From: Nitrospira sp.
GTDB taxonomy: Bacteria > Nitrospirota > Nitrospiria > Nitrospirales > Nitrospiraceae
DNA: 64,000 nucleotides
Assembly: GCA_005116965.1 (NCBI GenBank)
Contig: SWDG01000025.1
Location: 423,883 to 487,882, forward strand
Direction: 5' to 3'
The notes beneath the pieces were generated by a model. It had not been told where the DNA came from and made no database searches. It saw nothing but the letters and a program-made list of their open reading frames with translations. Below, in pieces: positions 22,208-31,013 of the stretch. Position 1 is the first letter of the stretch. Every line of letters starts with the position of its first letter. Position numbers and translations under genes: made by a program.

Positions 22208-22479
22208 TATGCAAGTCGGCTCAAAGCCAACTCAACCGGAATCATGCGACGACCGAGAAGGGCTGCATGCGGCAAGCTGGATGTAGCCCAACCGGCTATG
22301 AGCATTCAAAAGACCTGCAATGATAGCATCCCAGACCGTTCTGGATTCTCGACTCGGTTCGCCCCGTCAATTTTTCGATTGGATCTCTAACCGCTCTGGA
22401 ACTACTCACAAGAGCCGACCACCTGATCACCAGATGACTCACCTTGACAAAGCTTGAAACCGGGTGCTACCACCGTCAA

Positions 22480-23256
22480 ATGGTGGGAACCGACCGTCGT
22501 CCAGTGGCACAGGATTCCAAGGCCCCGGCAAAGGTGGTGTCCACCTGGTCCGGCCAGGCCCGCGAAGATGCCGTGCAGCGGATGTTCACCTCCATCGCCG
22601 GCGTCTACGACCTGAACAACACGCTGTTGAGTTTCGGCCTGCATTACCATTGGAAGAAGATTACCGCGTCCTTCATTACCCCCGTCGGACGAGGGACCGC
22701 GCTTGATGTCGGATCCGGCACGGCCGACCTTGCCCTCCTGCTCGAGTCTCGCATGGGACCCAAGGGACGTGTGATCGCATCAGACCTGAACTATGCGATG
22801 CTGGCCGAAGGCCTCAAGAAGATCGGTGGCAAAGGACTCACCGACAAAGTCACCTGCTTGCAGGCCAGCGCGGAACACCTGGGGTTCGGGGACAACACCT
22901 TCGATGCAGTCACCACCGGCTTTTGCATGCGCAACGTCGGGGATTTACCAGGTGCCGTGCGAGAAATTCGCCGTGTCATGAAGCCCGGTGGGCGCTTTGT
23001 GTGCTTGGAGTTTTCGCGTCCGGTATTCGGTTGGTTACGAACCTTGTACGATTGGTATTCGTTCAAACTGCTGCCCTGGGTCGGCACCATAGTCGCCCGT
23101 GATCGCACCGGCGTCTACGAGTACCTTCCCGCGTCCATCCGGACATTTCCCGACCAAGAACGGTTATGCCAGGTTCTACGCGATGCCGGGTTTCGTCAGG
23201 TGTCGTACAAAAACCTCAGCGGTGGCATCGTCGCGATACACGTCGCCACGAAATGA
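22480..23256 (+). CDS. ubiE: Demethylmenaquinone/ubiquinone-type C-methyltransferase
   Basis: A class I SAM methyltransferase of about 258 residues of the UbiE/MenG family. Family marks are MFTSIAGVYDLNNTLLSFGLH near the N-terminus, the SAM motif ALDVGSGTADLALLL, DNTFDAVTTGFCMRNV, and the C-terminal YEYLPASIRTFPDQE. It methylates the ring of demethylmenaquinone, the last step of menaquinone synthesis. The start is uncertain: ATG at 22480 or TTG at 22444, neither with a clear Shine-Dalgarno site. It is divergent from the pdh operon and followed 84 bases later by a B12-type radical SAM gene on the same strand. Confidence 0.9.
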   Translation: MVGTDRRPVAQDSKAPAKVVSTWSGQAREDAVQRMFTSIAGVYDLNNTLLSFGLHYHWKKITASFITPVGRGTALDVGSGTADLALLLESRMGPKGRVIASDLNYAMLAEGLKKIGGKGLTDKVTCLQASAEHLGFGDNTFDAVTTGFCMRNVGDLPGAVREIRRVMKPGGRFVCLEFSRPVFGWLRTLYDWYSFKLLPWVGTIVARDRTGVYEYLPASIRTFPDQERLCQVLRDAGFRQVSYKNLSGGIVAIHVATK

Positions 23257-23340: not shown

Positions 23341-24963
23341 ATGACTTCGATTCTCTACATCTTCCTCCCCTGCAAGATGGTCTATCCCATCGGGATCACC
23401 TATTTGGCGGATTTTATCCACCGGCGAAAACCAGACGTACGTCAGCGCATTCTCGATCTCTCGTTGTTTCCAGTCGCACAGCGCAGCCAAGCCATCCGCG
23501 ACGCCGCGACGGAGTTCAAGCCGGACCTAGTCTGCTTCTCATGGCGGGACATTCAAATCTTTTCGCCGCATGAGGGCGATTCGTCGTTAGAGCATGCGTT
23601 TAATTTCTATTTTGCCAGTAACCCGTTCAAGCGAATCACCGCCTCCATTGCAGGCGTCAAGCAGCTCTATCGCTATTACAATCACATCTACACGATCCTG
23701 TCGTACCCGGCGCTGATCCGCAAGGAGTTCCCCAAGGCCCAGATCATGATTGGCGGCGGAGCCTTTACAGCGTTTGCCGATCAGTTGATCGAAAAACTCC
23801 CGGAAGGCACAATCGGCATCCTTGGCGAAGGAGAAGACGCCATCCTGAAGGTCATTGAAGGCCGCTCGATTGAAGATGAACGGTACATTGTCAAAGAAGG
23901 TAACCAGATCCGAAAAGGCCGGCAGGGTTCCCCCGCGCTCTTAGATGCGCTCACGGTCGATCTGCCCTATCTCACCTCGATCTTCCCTCAATATGGGGAA
24001 TATATCGGTGAATCGATCGGTGTGCAGTCCAAGCGAGGCTGCCCATATGACTGCGCCTTCTGCCTCTATCCCTACATCGAAGGCAAGCGGGTACGGTACC
24101 GGCCACCGGAGATGGTCGTCAAAGATATCTCGCAGCATTATCATCAGTGGGGTGCCCGTCGGTTCTGGTTCACGGACGCCCAATTCATTACGGGCAAGGA
24201 AGCCTATCCACAATGTACGGAAATCCTTGAGCGAATTGTGGCGGAGAAACTTGAGATCGAGTGGTCCGGCTACATCAGAACCTCATTGATTACCCCTGAG
24301 TTTGCCAGGCTGATGGTCCGTTCTGGTGTCGGCGACTTGGAGGTGGCCATCACCTCCGGTTCACAGGAGGTCCTGAACAATCTCCACATGGGATTCAAGC
24401 TGGAACGCTTGTACGATGGCTGCCGCTATTTGGCAGAGGCCGGCTTCAAGGGCAAGGTCATCCTCAACTATTCCCTCAATAGCCCTAAGGAGACGGAAGA
24501 GAGCCTGCTTCAAAGCGTCGAGTCCTACAAGATGGTGGCCTCGATTCTTGGCGAAGAGCGTGTGTTTCCATTGATGTTTTTCTTAGGCATCCAGCCGAAT
24601 ACCGACCTGGAACAACGCCTACTGGAAGAGGGGTATTTGTCGGCCGGCTATAACCCCTTGATGCTGACACCGACCAGTATCAAGAAGCTTCTTTATAATC
24701 CTGCCCCCCTCAACAAGATTATCGCCAAGGCTTGTCTCCGCGCCTGGGAACGGAAGCAAGGTAGCCGCGATCCCCGTCGATGGACCGGATCCCTGTCCCA
24801 GTCATCGGGTGAACCAGCCTATGCCGACCAAAACCTGAGCAGAGGAATCGAAGGCAATTCCGGGCGGGACGCCTTGCTTTCGATCGAGGAAATCATCCGT
24901 TCCAGCAGGCCAACCCCCTCGCCCTCACAGATGGCTGAACCAAGGACTACCTCTACCAGTTGA
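23341..24963 (+). CDS. B12-binding-type radical SAM protein
   Basis: A protein of 540 residues with an N-terminal cobalamin-binding-like Rossmann region (about 1-190; IMIGGGAFTAFAD, GEGEDAIL) and a radical SAM core (about 225-430) with the 4Fe-4S ligands Cys234, Cys238 and Cys241 in RGCPYDCAFC. The arrangement resembles BchE/HpnJ-like class B methylases or cyclases. The last 80 residues are Ser/Pro-rich and look disordered. The substrate is unknown. It is followed on the same strand by proteins with PCP_red domains, so a tetrapyrrole or related cofactor is a reasonable guess, but only by association. No strong ribosome-binding site precedes the ATG. Confidence 0.85.
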   Translation: MTSILYIFLPCKMVYPIGITYLADFIHRRKPDVRQRILDLSLFPVAQRSQAIRDAATEFKPDLVCFSWRDIQIFSPHEGDSSLEHAFNFYFASNPFKRITASIAGVKQLYRYYNHIYTILSYPALIRKEFPKAQIMIGGGAFTAFADQLIEKLPEGTIGILGEGEDAILKVIEGRSIEDERYIVKEGNQIRKGRQGSPALLDALTVDLPYLTSIFPQYGEYIGESIGVQSKRGCPYDCAFCLYPYIEGKRVRYRPPEMVVKDISQHYHQWGARRFWFTDAQFITGKEAYPQCTEILERIVAEKLEIEWSGYIRTSLITPEFARLMVRSGVGDLEVAITSGSQEVLNNLHMGFKLERLYDGCRYLAEAGFKGKVILNYSLNSPKETEESLLQSVESYKMVASILGEERVFPLMFFLGIQPNTDLEQRLLEEGYLSAGYNPLMLTPTSIKKLLYNPAPLNKIIAKACLRAWERKQGSRDPRRWTGSLSQSSGEPAYADQNLSRGIEGNSGRDALLSIEEIIRSSRPTPSPSQMAEPRTTSTS

Positions 24964-25163: not shown

Positions 25164-27230
25164 ATGTATAAGACAATCTATATTCCGGTCGATAACTCCG
25201 ACCATTCGAATACAGCAGTGGATGTCGGCGTTCATTTGGCAAAAACATTCGGTTCCCGGATCGTCGGGAGCCACGTCTACGCCGCGAAGATGCACGATAA
25301 GCGCTTCAAGCAGATGGAAGCGGGCCTCCCGGAGGAATACCATGACGAGAAGGAGCTTGACCGTCAGCGCCAGATCCACGATTCGCTGATTACCCGAGGA
25401 CTCCAAATCATCACTGACTCCTACCTCGACTACGTCGATAAGAAATGTAACGAAGCGAATCTCCCTGTTGAACGGCGATCGCTCGAAGGACGTAACTGGA
25501 AAGTGCTGGCCGAAGACATCAACACCAACGGGTATGACCTCGTCATCATGGGCGCTTTGGGGGTCGGGGCGGTTAAAGACAGCGTCATCGGCAGCAACAC
25601 AGAGCGCGTGGTCCGCCGGGTCCGTAACTCCGACATGCTGATCATCAAGAACGTTCAGCCGATAACTGGCGGAAAGATCGTCGTGGCTGTCGACGGCAGC
25701 CCCTACTCGTTCGGCGGACTGATGACCGGCTTAGCGCTCGGCAAGGCCTTCAACATGCCGGTGGAGGCGATTTCAGCCTTCGATCCCTACTTCCACTACG
25801 CGGCATTCCACAGTATTTCCGGTGTCCTGAACGAAGAAGCCGGCAAAGTCTTTCGTTTCAAGGAACAAGAAAAACTGCACGAAGAAATCATCGACAGCGG
25901 CTTGGCTAAGATCTACCAGTCTCATTTGGACATTTCCCGAGAAATCGCCCAGGCCGAGCAAACGGATGTGAAAACGACGTTGCTGGACGGCAAAGCATTC
26001 GAAAAAATTATTCAGTACGTCCGGAAAGATGTCCCGGCCTTGCTCATCATCGGGCGTATCGGCGTCCATAGCGACGAGGACATGGACGTCGGCAGCAACA
26101 CTGAGAACCTGCTCAGGAGCGCCCCCTGTAATGTGCTGATCTCCAACCGCAAATACGTGCCTCCGATCGATACACAGGCCGAGTACACCATTGCCTGGAC
26201 GGAAGAAGCGCTGCGGCGGATGGAAAAGATCCCGGTCTTCGCGCGCGGCGTGGCAAAGACGGCCATTCATCGGTATGCCATCGAAAAAGGGCATACCATC
26301 ATCAGTAATACCGTCGTTGACACCGCGATCGGACACATTCTTCCAAAAGGTGCCATGGACGCTATGCGTGCGCTTGGCGGCAGCTTGGACGCAGCGGGTA
26401 TCGACCGCGACAAGATGCAAGCCGATGAGGGCGTGACCAAAGATCTCATGGGTCCGACATTGAGTGGAATCATGACCCAGATCGTTGAGGAGAAACCCAA
26501 AGAGATCAGCGCCTCCACACAGGCCTACCTGGACCGCATGGGACAAACCTATTTCGTCTGTGACGGCTGCGGCTACATCGGAAAGGGAGACAGCCCGGTC
26601 AAATGTCCGGTGTGCAGTGCGGATGGGGCGAGATTCAAACAGGTCGATAAGAAGATTTTTGAAGTGGCCGCGACAACTGAAGGTGAATTGGAAACGGACG
26701 TAGCCTACGACGACGTGCCAATGCAATGGACCAAGGATGCAAAAGAAGCGATCCGTGCCGTGCCGGCTGGCTTCCAGCGGAGACGTGCGAAGGCCAGGAT
26801 TGAAAAAAGCGCGCGGAAACTAGGCATGACGACCATCACGCTTGAATATGCGGCGCCAACCATTCAAGAGGCTGCATCTGAAGACTATACGCCGATTTTC
26901 TCCAACAAAGGCACCGGTACCTCGCCGATAGCGGAAGCCACCGTTGCAGCGTCGAATGGGGATGAGGAGAATGGTCATGTCGAAGCCGCCTCACCCTATA
27001 CCTGGACAGACGACGCACAAGCCAGATTGGATCGAGCTCCGGAAGGCTTCATGCGAGATTGCACCAGATCGCTCATTCTCAAGCATGCCGAGAAAATCGG
27101 CGCGACCCTGATCACGATTGAGGTCGCCGATGAAGGGATCGAACAGGCAAAGGGGTATATGGCCGAAGCGATGAAGACTGGCAATCTTAAGGACATGATT
27201 GCCGACCTCACCGGAAAAGGACGCGGATAA
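25164..27230 (+). CDS. Tandem universal stress protein with rubredoxin-like and three PCP_red domains
   Basis: A composite protein of 688 residues. Two UspA domains come first (about 1-165 and 168-330), each with the nucleotide-binding glycine pattern ending in GSNTE. Next is a PCP_red domain (about 342-395; WTEEALRRMEKIPVFARG), then a rubredoxin-like zinc or iron knuckle with four Cys (CDGCGYIG and CPVC, about 463-495), then two more PCP_red copies (about 519-565, MQWTKDAKEAIRAVP; about 610-660, YTWTDDAQARLDRAP) joined by a low-complexity linker. PCP_red is known as the small C-terminal domain of the light-independent protochlorophyllide reductase B subunit. No photosynthesis gene is in the window. 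It has no signal peptide. Function is unknown; a redox or tetrapyrrole-linked stress role is an inference. Confidence 0.85.
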   Translation: MYKTIYIPVDNSDHSNTAVDVGVHLAKTFGSRIVGSHVYAAKMHDKRFKQMEAGLPEEYHDEKELDRQRQIHDSLITRGLQIITDSYLDYVDKKCNEANLPVERRSLEGRNWKVLAEDINTNGYDLVIMGALGVGAVKDSVIGSNTERVVRRVRNSDMLIIKNVQPITGGKIVVAVDGSPYSFGGLMTGLALGKAFNMPVEAISAFDPYFHYAAFHSISGVLNEEAGKVFRFKEQEKLHEEIIDSGLAKIYQSHLDISREIAQAEQTDVKTTLLDGKAFEKIIQYVRKDVPALLIIGRIGVHSDEDMDVGSNTENLLRSAPCNVLISNRKYVPPIDTQAEYTIAWTEEALRRMEKIPVFARGVAKTAIHRYAIEKGHTIISNTVVDTAIGHILPKGAMDAMRALGGSLDAAGIDRDKMQADEGVTKDLMGPTLSGIMTQIVEEKPKEISASTQAYLDRMGQTYFVCDGCGYIGKGDSPVKCPVCSADGARFKQVDKKIFEVAATTEGELETDVAYDDVPMQWTKDAKEAIRAVPAGFQRRRAKARIEKSARKLGMTTITLEYAAPTIQEAASEDYTPIFSNKGTGTSPIAEATVAASNGDEENGHVEAASPYTWTDDAQARLDRAPEGFMRDCTRSLILKHAEKIGATLITIEVADEGIEQAKGYMAEAMKTGNLKDMIADLTGKGRG

Positions 27231-27313: not shown

Positions 27314-28711
27314 ATGGGTAAATCTCTTCCCATCTTCAATGGTCCTTCAGGCGTCTTGGGCTCTTTGCAGCAACAAATTGCCCAGTTCTTCACCCCCACT
27401 CCAAAGGGGGAAGGGCCGTTTGATGGTCGGACGGTTGACGACTTCAAGCCCTACCTCGTTGCGCTGAACCTGACCAAGCGTTGCAACCTCAAATGCGATC
27501 ACTGTTATCTCGATGCCACGACCAAAGCAGCTGGTGGGGACGACGAGCTGAGCACCGAAGAGTGCTACCGGCTCATTGGACAGATCGCAGAAGTGAATAA
27601 GGGGTGTCTTCTCGTCATTACTGGTGGCGAACCACTGGTGCGTCCTGACATTCTCGACATTGCTCGTTACGCTGTTAAACTTGGCTTTATGGTGGTTTTC
27701 GGCACAAACGGGATGCTGATCGATGACCAGATGGCCAAAGCGCTTGTAGAAATCGGCGTGATGGGAGTTGGCATCAGTATTGATTCATTGGACGCAGCGA
27801 AACACAATACTTTCCGTGGCGTTCCGGGAGCGTGGGAAGCGGCGATCGCCGGCATTGAAGCCAGCAAGCGGAATGGCCTCCAATTTCAAGTGCACTTCAG
27901 TGCTCAGCCGATGAACTATCGGGAGCTGCCTGAAGTCATCGACTGGGCGCACCGACTCGGCGCCCGCGTCCTGAACGTGTTCTTTATGGTGTGTACGGGA
28001 CGAGGCGAAGAGCTGACGGATATCACTCCCGCTCAGTATGAAGAGGTCCTTGGCTACCTCGTTGAATGCCAGGACAATTACAAAGGCATGTTGGTCCGTG
28101 CCCGTTGCGCTCCGCACTTCAAAAGGTTGGCCTATGAGAAGGACCCTAACTCCCCGATCACGAAGGCGACTGGATATATGGGGGGAGGATGCCTGGCAGG
28201 CACCAACTACGCCCGAGTGACGCCAAACGGTGAACTGACCCCCTGTCCCTATATGCCGCTGTCGGCAGGGAATATCCGTCAACAGAGCTTCGTTGATCTC
28301 TGGGAACGATCGGATATCTTCAACTCCTTTCGCTATCCCCAACTCAAGGGGAAATGTGGTGACTGCGAATATACTGATATCTGTGGGGGGTGCCGCGCCC
28401 GTCCCTATGTCGACCACGGCGACTGGCTGGATGAAGATCAGTGGTGCCTCTACACCCCGAAAGGCGGCGAGAAAATTAAAGTGGCGTTCAATGTCTCGGA
28501 AGAGACCGATGTCGCGTGGGACGACGCGTCTGCTCTCCGATTGAGCCGTATCCCCTACTTCCTACGTGCGATGGTGAAGAAAGGCGTGGAAAAGCACGCC
28601 CGCGAAAACAACGTACCGCTTATCACCGTTGAACTCATGGAAGAGCTGCGCAAGAAGCGATTCGGCAATGACGCACCTGTCTTTAACTTTGACGTAAGGG
28701 GTAAGGGATAA
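27314..28711 (+). CDS. Radical SAM/SPASM protein with C-terminal PCP_red domain
   Basis: A protein of 465 residues. Radical SAM ligands Cys57, Cys61 and Cys64 lie in TKRCNLKCDHCYLD; GGEPLVRPD is the SAM-binding GGE motif. A SPASM region (about 292-385) carries more cysteines for auxiliary Fe-S clusters (CGDCEYTDICGGCRARPY). It resembles NirJ and AhbC/AhbD enzymes of heme d1 and siroheme-dependent heme synthesis. The C-terminus (about 395-445; WDDASALRLSRIPYFLRA) is a PCP_red domain like the three in the upstream protein. The shared domain and co-orientation suggest a common complex or substrate. The reaction is not predictable. No good Shine-Dalgarno site is seen. Confidence 0.88.
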   Translation: MGKSLPIFNGPSGVLGSLQQQIAQFFTPTPKGEGPFDGRTVDDFKPYLVALNLTKRCNLKCDHCYLDATTKAAGGDDELSTEECYRLIGQIAEVNKGCLLVITGGEPLVRPDILDIARYAVKLGFMVVFGTNGMLIDDQMAKALVEIGVMGVGISIDSLDAAKHNTFRGVPGAWEAAIAGIEASKRNGLQFQVHFSAQPMNYRELPEVIDWAHRLGARVLNVFFMVCTGRGEELTDITPAQYEEVLGYLVECQDNYKGMLVRARCAPHFKRLAYEKDPNSPITKATGYMGGGCLAGTNYARVTPNGELTPCPYMPLSAGNIRQQSFVDLWERSDIFNSFRYPQLKGKCGDCEYTDICGGCRARPYVDHGDWLDEDQWCLYTPKGGEKIKVAFNVSEETDVAWDDASALRLSRIPYFLRAMVKKGVEKHARENNVPLITVELMEELRKKRFGNDAPVFNFDVRGKG

Positions 28712-28787: not shown

Positions 28788-29297
28788 ATGGACGCGCTCC
28801 AAAGTATCACCACCGATCTCAACATCCTCATTCCGATCGTCAACCACTGGTTCCATCTGCTGTCAGCGATCATTTGGATCGGAGGCTTGGCATTCCTCGT
28901 CATGGCGGTGACACCAGGGCTTGAGAAAGCTGTTCCAAAGGATCAGATCAAACCCATCACGGATATTTTTTACCGGCATTACAAGAAAGTCGCCGGCATT
29001 CTCGTCGTCGTCCTACTGTTCACCGGCGGCGTGAATCTCCACTACGTCAATCAGGTCATTACGTCACAAACGGGAAGCGGGATCCAGCACCACTCCAAGT
29101 ACCTCATGGTCTTCATGATCAAGCTTCTTCTCGTGCTGGGGCTTCTCACACTGTTCCTCTACACGGTCATTTTCAAGTCAGACGATGAGGCCGAAGAGGG
29201 AGAGTCCTACGAGGTTATTCCCTTCCAGCGCGCCGCCCTGTGGATGGGATTCTTCACTATCCTCTGCGCCGCCGCCATGAAACACCTGCATCAATAA
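28788..29297 (+). CDS. CopD-like four-helix membrane protein
   Basis: A protein of 169 residues with four hydrophobic helices (about 15-42, 68-88, 107-130, 143-162). Histidines lie at or near helices (NHWFHLL, the HYVNQV and HHSKY loop, and KHLHQ at the C-terminus). This resembles small CopD/DUF2269-type membrane proteins, some of which bind heme or copper; that binding is an inference here. It is 76 bases downstream of the SPASM radical SAM gene on the same strand and may be its membrane partner. Family assignment is moderate. Confidence 0.7.
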   Translation: MDALQSITTDLNILIPIVNHWFHLLSAIIWIGGLAFLVMAVTPGLEKAVPKDQIKPITDIFYRHYKKVAGILVVVLLFTGGVNLHYVNQVITSQTGSGIQHHSKYLMVFMIKLLLVLGLLTLFLYTVIFKSDDEAEEGESYEVIPFQRAALWMGFFTILCAAAMKHLHQ

Positions 29298-30245: not shown

Positions 30246-31013
30246 TCACTTAGACCGGCTGAGGCCTAGCGCGCGCTTGAAGACGGCGGCGAAGCCGAAA
30301 TAGCCGAATGAATCTTTGAGGTTCGAATAGAGCCGCTTGACGGCGCCCATCTCAGGATTGGTGACATACTCCATTGTTAAGGCAATCCGCTCCTCACCCT
30401 CTCCGAGAGGCGTGACCGCATGCCAGAGTTTATCACCGTTGAAAATCACCATATCCCCAGGCTCAGTCACGAGTTCAAGATGGCGGGACTCCTTGGTTGG
30501 ATGGTCCTTGAACAGCTCGCACACTAGCTTGCACTGGGTTGACCGATCGACAAGCCCCATCAGAATCGTGTAGCGAGCGCCCTTGTAGTATGACGTATCG
30601 TAGTGGAACCCTATGTGGTCACCCGGTTCAGTGTAGTAGTAGAGGGCGCAGGAATGGGGATCGTTGTCCGGACAGAACATTAGTTTTGCCTCAACGAGCC
30701 GGTCCAGGAATGCCCGGAATGACTCGGACCGATAGAGGTCGAGAAAGCGAGGGGCTTTCTCCTGCACGGTATAATAACTGACGCTCCCGCCCTTCTTATG
30801 GCCGGGAATGTAGTTTCGATTGAGTTCCGCTTTCACGCCCTGTGCTTGAGGAACGAGTACCTCCTCAACGAAGGCACGGGGCAAGAACTGCTTGATGACG
30901 AGAAACTCGTCCTGATCCCAATACTCTTGGTGAAGCCGGTCGAAATCCAAGGCGGTGACCGCTTGGGTGACCCTGTCCGTCACATTGCTCACAAGACTCT
31001 GCACCTGTCTCAA
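30246..31013 (-). CDS. 2-oxoglutarate/Fe(II)-dependent oxygenase family protein
   Basis: A protein of about 255 residues with the facial-triad pattern of the PhyH/2OG-Fe(II) oxygenase fold: H-x-D in IGFHYDTSYY, a distal His in DKLWHAVTP, and a following Arg in RIALTM for 2-oxoglutarate. It should hydroxylate an unknown substrate using O2. The start is uncertain: TTG at 31013 follows GAGGG; a GTG at 31004 is also possible. It lies downstream of lolA on the same strand with about 100 bases between, and has no obvious functional link to its neighbours. Confidence 0.82.
   Translation of the reverse strand: MRQVQSLVSNVTDRVTQAVTALDFDRLHQEYWDQDEFLVIKQFLPRAFVEEVLVPQAQGVKAELNRNYIPGHKKGGSVSYYTVQEKAPRFLDLYRSESFRAFLDRLVEAKLMFCPDNDPHSCALYYYTEPGDHIGFHYDTSYYKGARYTILMGLVDRSTQCKLVCELFKDHPTKESRHLELVTEPGDMVIFNGDKLWHAVTPLGEGEERIALTMEYVTNPEMGAVKRLYSNLKDSFGYFGFAAVFKRALGLSRSK

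Follow-up and report, generated by a model that had tools for sequence, protein, structure and literature searches.

The described systems closest to the enzyme reported here include two that act on the propionate side chains of tetrapyrroles. AhbD, the haem b synthase (Fe-coproporphyrin III decarboxylase), converts propionates to vinyls, and NirJ, a radical S-adenosylmethionine (SAM) enzyme of haem d1 synthesis, converts them to carbonyls (PMC7242693, accessible part); the AhbD proteins of methanogens and sulfate reducers have a full eight-cysteine SPASM motif (PMC10452713, accessible part). The PCP_red domain has been known as a piece of the dark-operative protochlorophyllide reductase (DPOR), where it lies at the C-terminus of the subunit BchB/ChlB. 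In this study, we describe a gene from a 64,000-nucleotide stretch of Nitrospira sp. DNA (contig SWDG01000025.1, positions 423,883 to 487,882; the window), whose product, P0001, joins a catalytic part of the AhbD/NirJ2 lineage, as judged from profile scores and trees, to a C-terminal PCP_red domain, and report that genes of this kind, here called rSAM-PCP_red, are securely associated with cytochrome bd-like (OR-N) oxidases.

These oxidases are known from Nitrospira, Nitrospina and anammox bacteria (PMC6606698, PMC10839748, PMC12342949), and related clusters have been described in manganese-oxidising bacteria, together with anammox ones, among the papers on bd-like/TO complexes (PMC9040806). 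Their proposed role in Nitrospira and Nitrospina is that of terminal oxidase, with a subunit composition and function that are experimentally unproven, and their haem content is given as predicted haem b together with copper sites (PMC6606698, PMC10839748, PMC9040806). The accessible portions of these four papers do not link the oxidases to rSAM-PCP_red or to the Usp-PCP_red proteins described below.

The gene and its domains are as follows.
27314..28711, + strand: radical SAM/SPASM protein with C-terminal PCP_red, 465 amino acids, P0001 (open reading frame (ORF) from ATG to stop; Pfam)
27467..27946, + strand: Radical_SAM domain, residues 52-211, with CX3CX2C at Cys57, Cys61 and Cys64 (Pfam and motif)
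28190..28369, + strand: SPASM domain match, residues 293-352 (Pfam)
28517..28651, + strand: PCP_red domain (PF08369), residues 402-446 (Pfam)

All three Pfam matches exceeded their cut-offs (Radical_SAM 81.9 bits against 29.5; SPASM 40.5 against 21.5), and the PCP_red match covered all 45 profile positions (48.5 bits against 32.5, E 8.9e-13), in agreement with the original prediction of a radical SAM/SPASM enzyme with an appended PCP_red domain. A phmmer search aligned residues 390-443 with residues 450-503 of the DPOR subunit ChlB (solved structure 2xdq_B, E 5.2e-5), but P0001 lacks the nitrogenase-like body of BchB/ChlB, and all five PCP_red ORFs of its genome are of other make-up. Since these five ORFs hold 12 PCP_red matches, 11 of them above the cut-off, and the domain was detected in the rSAM ORF at 74 loci including the window, its presence is taken as real and not due to chance. 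In the structural model of P0001 the domain forms three helices (404-411, 415-431 and 439-450), and the N-terminus was poorly modelled (residues 1-36, pLDDT below 50). Across 380 distinct PCP_red domains only a Trp is invariant, which together with the three-helix model suggests that the domain probably binds through its surface or shape and not as a ligand of haem iron. A fold search with the model returned PqqE, SkfB and SuiB as the best solved matches, with anSME, MoaA and viperin among the others; no AhbD or NirJ structure was among the matches listed, and PCP_red gave no match of its own. The closest named relatives of P0001 were from Nitrospira sp., and scans for promoters and terminators gave results close to chance level.

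Among NCBIfam profiles, P0001 scored best against NirJ2 (TIGR04055, a putative family; 322.9 bits) and second best against AhbD (TIGR04545; 315.6), followed by TIGR04053 (266.5), NirJ1 (176.1), NirJ (TIGR04051; 172, cut-off 515.45), AhbC (171), mycofactocin (127.5, cut-off 265) and PqqE (108.6, cut-off 381.35). Its score stayed under the cut-off for every one of the 25 families that were listed out of 83, and a SAR324 member (L126) scored similarly against AhbD (320.8). A careful tree was computed from 68 catalytic domains, with PCP_red left out and with group labels taken from scores to P0001. In it, all 30 of the 30 rSAM-PCP_red rows formed a single clade (bootstrap 100/SH-aLRT 100), which was joined at 96/86 by four archaeal and four Bacillota/Omnitrophota rows, and 16 AhbC/NirJ rows split off at 100/100. 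A quick tree of 114 rows was concordant (clade of 52, SH-aLRT 99). Ten tree rows were also scanned against NCBIfam, four of them among the eight rows joining the clade: L123 and L127 lay above the NirJ2 cut-off, and the archaeal L119 and L135 lay below those of both AhbD and NirJ2 and, like L144 and L199, below all cut-offs shown. A sulfate-reducer row, L134, was above the AhbD cut-off (561.9 bits), with a neighbouring gene above that of AhbC, and fell outside the branch containing the rSAM-PCP_red clade in the 114-row tree. The clade stands on its own and is not placed within AhbD proper.

By profile scores and tree, P0001 is an enzyme of the AhbD/NirJ2 lineage and not NirJ, AhbC or a peptide maturase. 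The original prediction of a NirJ/Ahb-like, haem-modifying kind of enzyme holds to this extent, with both cut-offs of 500 bits, for NirJ2 and for AhbD, unreached; no grouping with peptide-modifying SPASM enzymes was found, and the C-terminus does resemble PCP_red. Identity with NirJ itself was dropped on the cut-offs and on the tree, where NirJ lies on the far side of the 100/100 branch.

The sequence motifs were compared as well. The eight cysteines of its SPASM motif (Cys265, 293, 311, 348, 351, 357, 360 and 378) extend past the Pfam match; P0001 has the published AhbD spacing, and all 74 of 74 rSAM-PCP_red proteins match a slightly loosened pattern, 73 of them also having CX3CX2C, the exception (L120) being a short ORF of 361 amino acids. 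Cys293, Cys311 and Cys360 are common to rSAM-PCP_red and 24 AhbD-type rows and were not found in 31 AhbC/NirJ rows. Besides the added PCP_red domain, the clade differs from AhbD-type rows in Asn221 (100%; mostly His, 62%, in the latter) and in Cys227 (88%), and Gly151 (96%) is likewise specific to it; the surroundings of the active site may thus differ from those of AhbD.

Matches to P0001 (at 1e-40) were found in 111 of 148 Nitrospirota genomes, and the PCP_red form in 55 of the 148. The alignments of 53 of these reach at least residue 449 (one in two pieces) and the remaining two (G021, G030) are cut at contig ends, whereas matches without PCP_red end before residue 400. The domain was present in the rSAM ORF at 19 of the 20 loci fetched, the twentieth (L062) being truncated. 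Among the best 80 of 586 confirmed loci from a wider scan of genome collections, 54 had PCP_red in the rSAM ORF and 23 served as PCP_red-less controls; no PCP_red was seen in L106, L107 and L117, two of which lie at contig ends. Judged by their record labels, carriers among the matches listed include members of Nitrospirota, Nitrospinota, Planctomycetota (Brocadia, Scalindua), Gemmatimonadota, Acidobacteriota, Pseudomonadota, SAR324 and Thermodesulfobacteriota. A Paenibacillus plasmid match running up to residue 450 was not counted, because the region that it covers is annotated as two genes, one for a short radical SAM protein and one of the AsnC family.

Many of these loci encode a protein that partly resembles subunit I of cytochrome bd, together with c-type cytochromes and EB_dh haem b domains. 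We equate this protein with the bd-like/OR-N oxidases on the basis of its domains and of how the clusters have been described in the literature. Of 77 rSAM-PCP_red loci, a set which includes L062, L106, L107 and L117 without detected PCP_red in the rSAM ORF, 17 had the oxidase, 21 had EB_dh/cytochrome-c-type proteins and 24 had proteins of the protoporphyrinogen oxidase (PPO) type, against none of the 23 PCP_red-less AhbD/NirJ2-type loci in each case. In L091, L092, L095 and L114 the rSAM gene abuts or overlaps the oxidase gene, both lying on one strand, and in a Gemmatimonadota genome (G164, locus L227) the 3' end of the rSAM gene overlaps the start of the oxidase gene. Two EB_dh proteins joined to c-type cytochrome domains lie beside the oxidase in L126 (1255-2868 and 6228-7916).

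The association was also seen when the oxidase was searched genome-wide with a 13-row profile (A3). In the 148 Nitrospirota genomes both genes occurred in 53, rSAM-PCP_red only in two (G002, G008), the oxidase only in two (G018, G069) and neither in 91 (Fisher 3.7e-35, a value that ignores relatedness); counted by genus the figures were 20/1/1/49 of 71 (1.9e-15), a count which merely softens the effect of relatedness. In the gammaproteobacterial order of Thiolapillus, with 195 genomes, both were found in 32, rSAM-PCP_red only in three (G256, G324, G341), the oxidase only in one and neither in 159 (Fisher 4.3e-32, again ignoring relatedness). In the oxidase-only genome, G356, the rSAM gene is cut by the end of its contig, and the oxidase match of G183 (151 bits) likewise lies at a contig end. 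PCP_red was domain-checked in eight of the 35 rSAM genomes of this order, the other 27 being assigned by score (460-571 bits, where the next group reached 218). Overall, the distribution of rSAM-PCP_red follows the oxidase more than any single core haem route.

Two genes flank the rSAM gene in the window.
25164..27230, + strand: Usp-Usp-PCP_red x3 protein with a rubredoxin-like segment, 688 amino acids, a conserved partner upstream of the rSAM gene (Pfam)
28788..29297, + strand: CopD/DUF4149-like protein, 169 amino acids, probably a membrane protein, the next gene downstream of the rSAM gene

The three PCP_red matches of the 688-residue protein total 111.7 bits, so that the domain is indeed shared with the upstream neighbour as had been proposed; its rubredoxin-like match (25.4 bits) lies just below the cut-off of 26.5. 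In 52 of the 74 rSAM-PCP_red loci (L075 and L049, both counted, are copies of one contig) a Usp gene on the same strand is no more than 300 bp away, and 47 of these 52 Usp proteins carry PCP_red, the exceptions being L058-L061 and L114; another 20 of the 74 gave no Usp gene, among them the Nitrospinota and Brocadia loci. The pairing with a Usp protein noted earlier is thus conserved, but the label of stress protein is probably misleading, because PCP_red is a domain of a chlorophyll-synthesis enzyme, is fused to HemQ-like proteins and belongs here to a module that follows bd-like oxidases. In 23 of the 74 loci, L049 and L075 again both counted, a PPO-type gene is at most 300 bp away. Two of these flavin adenine dinucleotide neighbours were scanned and scored 249.9 and 290.7 bits against TIGR00562 (cut-off 97.85), and for one the best solved relative was the protoporphyrinogen oxidase 2ivd (E 7e-63).

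The neighbourhood differs in this respect from those of related enzymes: rSAM-PCP_red adjoins Usp-PCP_red, PPO-type and OR-N oxidase genes, whereas AhbD-type loci have an AhbC-type rSAM gene. Among the best 80 loci, a second rSAM gene of the AhbC/NirJ type was present in 20 of the 23 controls and in none of the 57 loci with a PCP_red-bearing or truncated rSAM; P0001, which shares the 96/86 branch with the NirJ2 rows, likewise has no second rSAM gene beside it.

CopD-like homologues follow the rSAM gene in Nitrospiria loci (in L047, after a PCP_red x4 gene). The CopD-like protein may resemble HemJ, the membrane protoporphyrinogen oxidase; searches with five members gave CopD, DUF4149 and other weak matches and no HemJ family up to E 1. 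In L227, a Chlor_dismutase-Rieske protein and ferrochelatase are encoded within 14 kb of the module; the former, at L227:16785-17897, is a fusion of a chlorite-dismutase/HemQ-type domain to a Rieske domain.

One cluster was seen in a genome of the same class (G131), and comparable parts are split over three places in the genome of the window, namely the window itself, L013 and L224.
L223 (G131, 17 kb): Usp-PCP_red x3, rSAM-PCP_red, CopD-like, FG-GAP, PCP_red x4, Haem_oxygenas_2 protein, PCP_red x2, then Mrp-like NTPase, DUF420, thioredoxin-like, dihaem EB_dh-type cytochrome, two more cytochromes c and the oxidase
L013 (contig 27, the contig of the window, about 42-46 kb downstream): FG-GAP/Mrp fusion, PCP_red x4, PCP_red x2
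L224 (contig 6 of the same genome): DUF420, PCP_red x2, two oxidases, cytochrome c, EB_dh-type

In L224 the PCP_red x2 protein is encoded within 7 kb of the two bd-like oxidases. The 627-residue ORF at L013:7104-8987 fuses FG-GAP repeats to an Mrp/NUBPL-type NTPase, a puzzling topology; the two are separate genes in L046. In the f13 loci L048-L050 the rSAM ORF is 706-730 amino acids long and has four PCP_red matches, and looks like a fusion with the PCP_red x4 protein that is a separate gene in Nitrospira (L013). Nitrospinota have HemQ-like proteins with an N-terminal PCP_red in three of the three genomes searched, and a further case was found in G010.
L171:1048-2118, L165:1462-2412 and L167:1150-2115 (Nitrospinota): HemQ/chlorite-dismutase-family protein with N-terminal PCP_red
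L175:937-2064 (G010): weak Chlor_dismutase protein with N-terminal PCP_red
With fusions in BchB/ChlB, in AhbD/NirJ2-like rSAM proteins and in HemQ-like proteins, PCP_red recurs on enzymes of tetrapyrrole metabolism.

The co-travel of rSAM-PCP_red with the oxidase across several phyla suggests that the enzyme helps to make or fit the haem of the oxidase. We give about an even chance to the reading that the substrate of P0001 is an iron porphyrin bearing propionates, be it coproheme, haem or something closely derived from them, and that the module to which it belongs makes or delivers haem for OR-N oxidase complexes. This module would comprise Usp-PCP_red, rSAM-PCP_red and often a PPO-type protein, and in Nitrospiria also the CopD-like and further multi-PCP_red proteins. 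Radical chemistry on a tetrapyrrole side chain is proposed because of the lineage and the PPO-type and HemQ-type associations. As the CX3CX2C motif suggests, a [4Fe-4S]/SAM centre would generate the 5'-deoxyadenosyl radical; by kinship with AhbD and NirJ, this would abstract a hydrogen from a propionate side chain, leading to decarboxylation or another modification, and two SPASM clusters, predicted from the eight cysteines, would take up the electron. PCP_red, given its repeated fusion to tetrapyrrole enzymes, would hold on to the tetrapyrrole or provide docking for partners, allowing the product to be handed on, and gene linkage points to the oxidase as the place of delivery. Recruitment or channelling through the shared domain, as originally suggested, is hypothetical.

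Several points weigh against this haem-delivery reading, whose substrate, product and protein contacts are hypothetical. P0001 falls well short of the NirJ2 and AhbD cut-offs and has Cys at position 227, where 96% of AhbD-type rows have Pro, so its reaction may differ from that of AhbD; PCP_red has no invariant residue that could serve as a haem ligand. The co-occurrence was assessed by Fisher tests and genus counts and not on a species tree. G324 keeps Usp-PCP_red, rSAM-PCP_red and PPO-type genes with no oxidase match, its rSAM match lying on a 4.1-Mb contig; rSAM-PCP_red also occurs without an oxidase match in G256, G341, G008 and G167, with only a fragment in G002, and conversely G018 and G069 have the oxidase without rSAM-PCP_red. 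In the genome of the window the oxidases are not clustered with the rSAM gene, two being on contig 6 and two on the contig of the window about 390 kb away. As a separate observation on G324, its PPO-type gene is present as a 113-residue piece and a separate ORF of 492 residues (L218:9340-11913).

The main rival, which we regard as doubtful, is that rSAM-PCP_red is a housekeeping AhbD-type haem synthase, making haem b from coproheme for the whole cell, with PCP_red as a passenger or regulatory part. Its place in the AhbD/NirJ2 half of the tree and the retained AhbD-type SPASM motif fit such a role, as does the fusion of PCP_red to HemQ-like proteins in Nitrospinota. The genome of the window, in which ferrochelatase and four places with Chlor_dismutase matches (two close together on contig 12) were found, gave no HemN above cut-off, no HemF, no NirJ above cut-off and no second P0001 match at 1e-40; G002, G006, G007 and G012 gave no HemN above cut-off and no HemF, HemH or Chlor_dismutase match, and G002 has an additional PCP_red-less rSAM match. 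Against this, many carriers have a different enzyme that could perform the step. Proteins of the Chlor_dismutase family were found in 11 of 11 f1 carriers tested, HemN above cut-off in 12 of 23 non-Nitrospirota carriers as well as in G008 and G131, and HemF in G119 and G131. A separate PCP_red-less AhbD-like match was found in G062, G083, G099 and G111, near ferrochelatase in G062 and G111, and f21/f22 carriers have a gene of this kind. The Chlor_dismutase copies may be HemQ or chlorite dismutase, eight of eight scanned being below the HemQ cut-offs. The position of L134 outside the branch of the clade, and the second rSAM gene that accompanies the controls and not the PCP_red or truncated loci, also tell against a housekeeping role, and 91 of the 93 oxidase-less Nitrospirota genomes do without the PCP_red form, many having a PCP_red-less match or HemN instead. 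A role as a plain substitute for HemN, HemF or HemQ is retained as no more than a rival view, because core routes vary among carriers. NirJ above cut-off was present as a further gene in five of 40 genomes searched. In four order-level relatives, the f2 genomes G081, G065, G137 and G125, Chlor_dismutase was present and no ferrochelatase match was obtained with PF00762.

An unlikely alternative is that what the enzyme matures is not the oxidase but different haem proteins from the same respiratory chain, namely haem b subunits of the EB_dh or NxrC type or multihaem cytochromes. The EB_dh/cytochrome-c-type proteins at 21 of the 77 loci agree with it, and since EB_dh and oxidase genes mostly form one cluster, the two are inseparable with these data. 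A molybdopterin-oxidoreductase-like gene (TIGR03479, 314.7 bits, cut-off 984.75) is present in L060; L112 and L114 have large genes that belong to the same cluster as this one, and these two loci have TorD/NarJ-like chaperone genes (below NCBIfam but above Pfam cut-offs); such molybdoenzyme neighbours occur in few loci, which speaks against it.

Quite unlikely, in our view, is co-inheritance alone, in which rSAM-PCP_red and the oxidase share an island of aerobic lithotrophs and have no direct biochemical link. Although G324, G256 and G341 and the unclustered genes of the Nitrospira genome would suit it, the association holds in several phyla and where the genes lie apart, and the two genes overlap in Gemmatimonadota loci. 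A peptide- or protein-modifying SPASM maturase, suggested by the PqqE, SkfB and SuiB matches of the model, is very improbable and was dropped on the NCBIfam scores, given also the frequent PPO-type neighbour and that no peptide-precursor gene was noticed (no search was aimed at one).

Three other genes of the window were noted. A methyltransferase gene (22444-23256) exceeds the NCBIfam cut-off for MpqE of methyl-plastoquinone biosynthesis (401 bits against 335), and its cluster recurs in 11 loci, mostly of Nitrospira. The gene at 23341-24963 encodes a B12-binding radical SAM protein like the slr0320 family (445 bits, cut-off 775), with a cluster of like size in 11 Nitrospira-type loci. That at 30246-31013 encodes a 2-oxoglutarate oxygenase-like protein with similarity to HalD (33.7 bits, cut-off 26) and, more weakly, to WelO5.

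The PCP_red domain, this kind of enzyme and the oxidases were each known, and the PCP_red-bearing clade, its partners and the OR-N link are new here; they were not found in the literature searched, which covers few subscription papers and not Murali 2021. A more far-reaching version of the haem-delivery reading, which seems rather improbable to us, is that the module is a dedicated haem-tailoring line, providing an undescribed haem, or a special haem built in place, for OR-N oxidases; PCP_red, which also occurs in chlorophyll synthesis and on HemQ-like enzymes, would then be a domain that serves generally to hand over tetrapyrroles. The domain, known as a piece of DPOR, gains a testable wider role in haem metabolism, and an enzyme of the haem-synthase kind that tracks the OR-N oxidases offers a concrete handle on whether these oxidases carry a modified haem.

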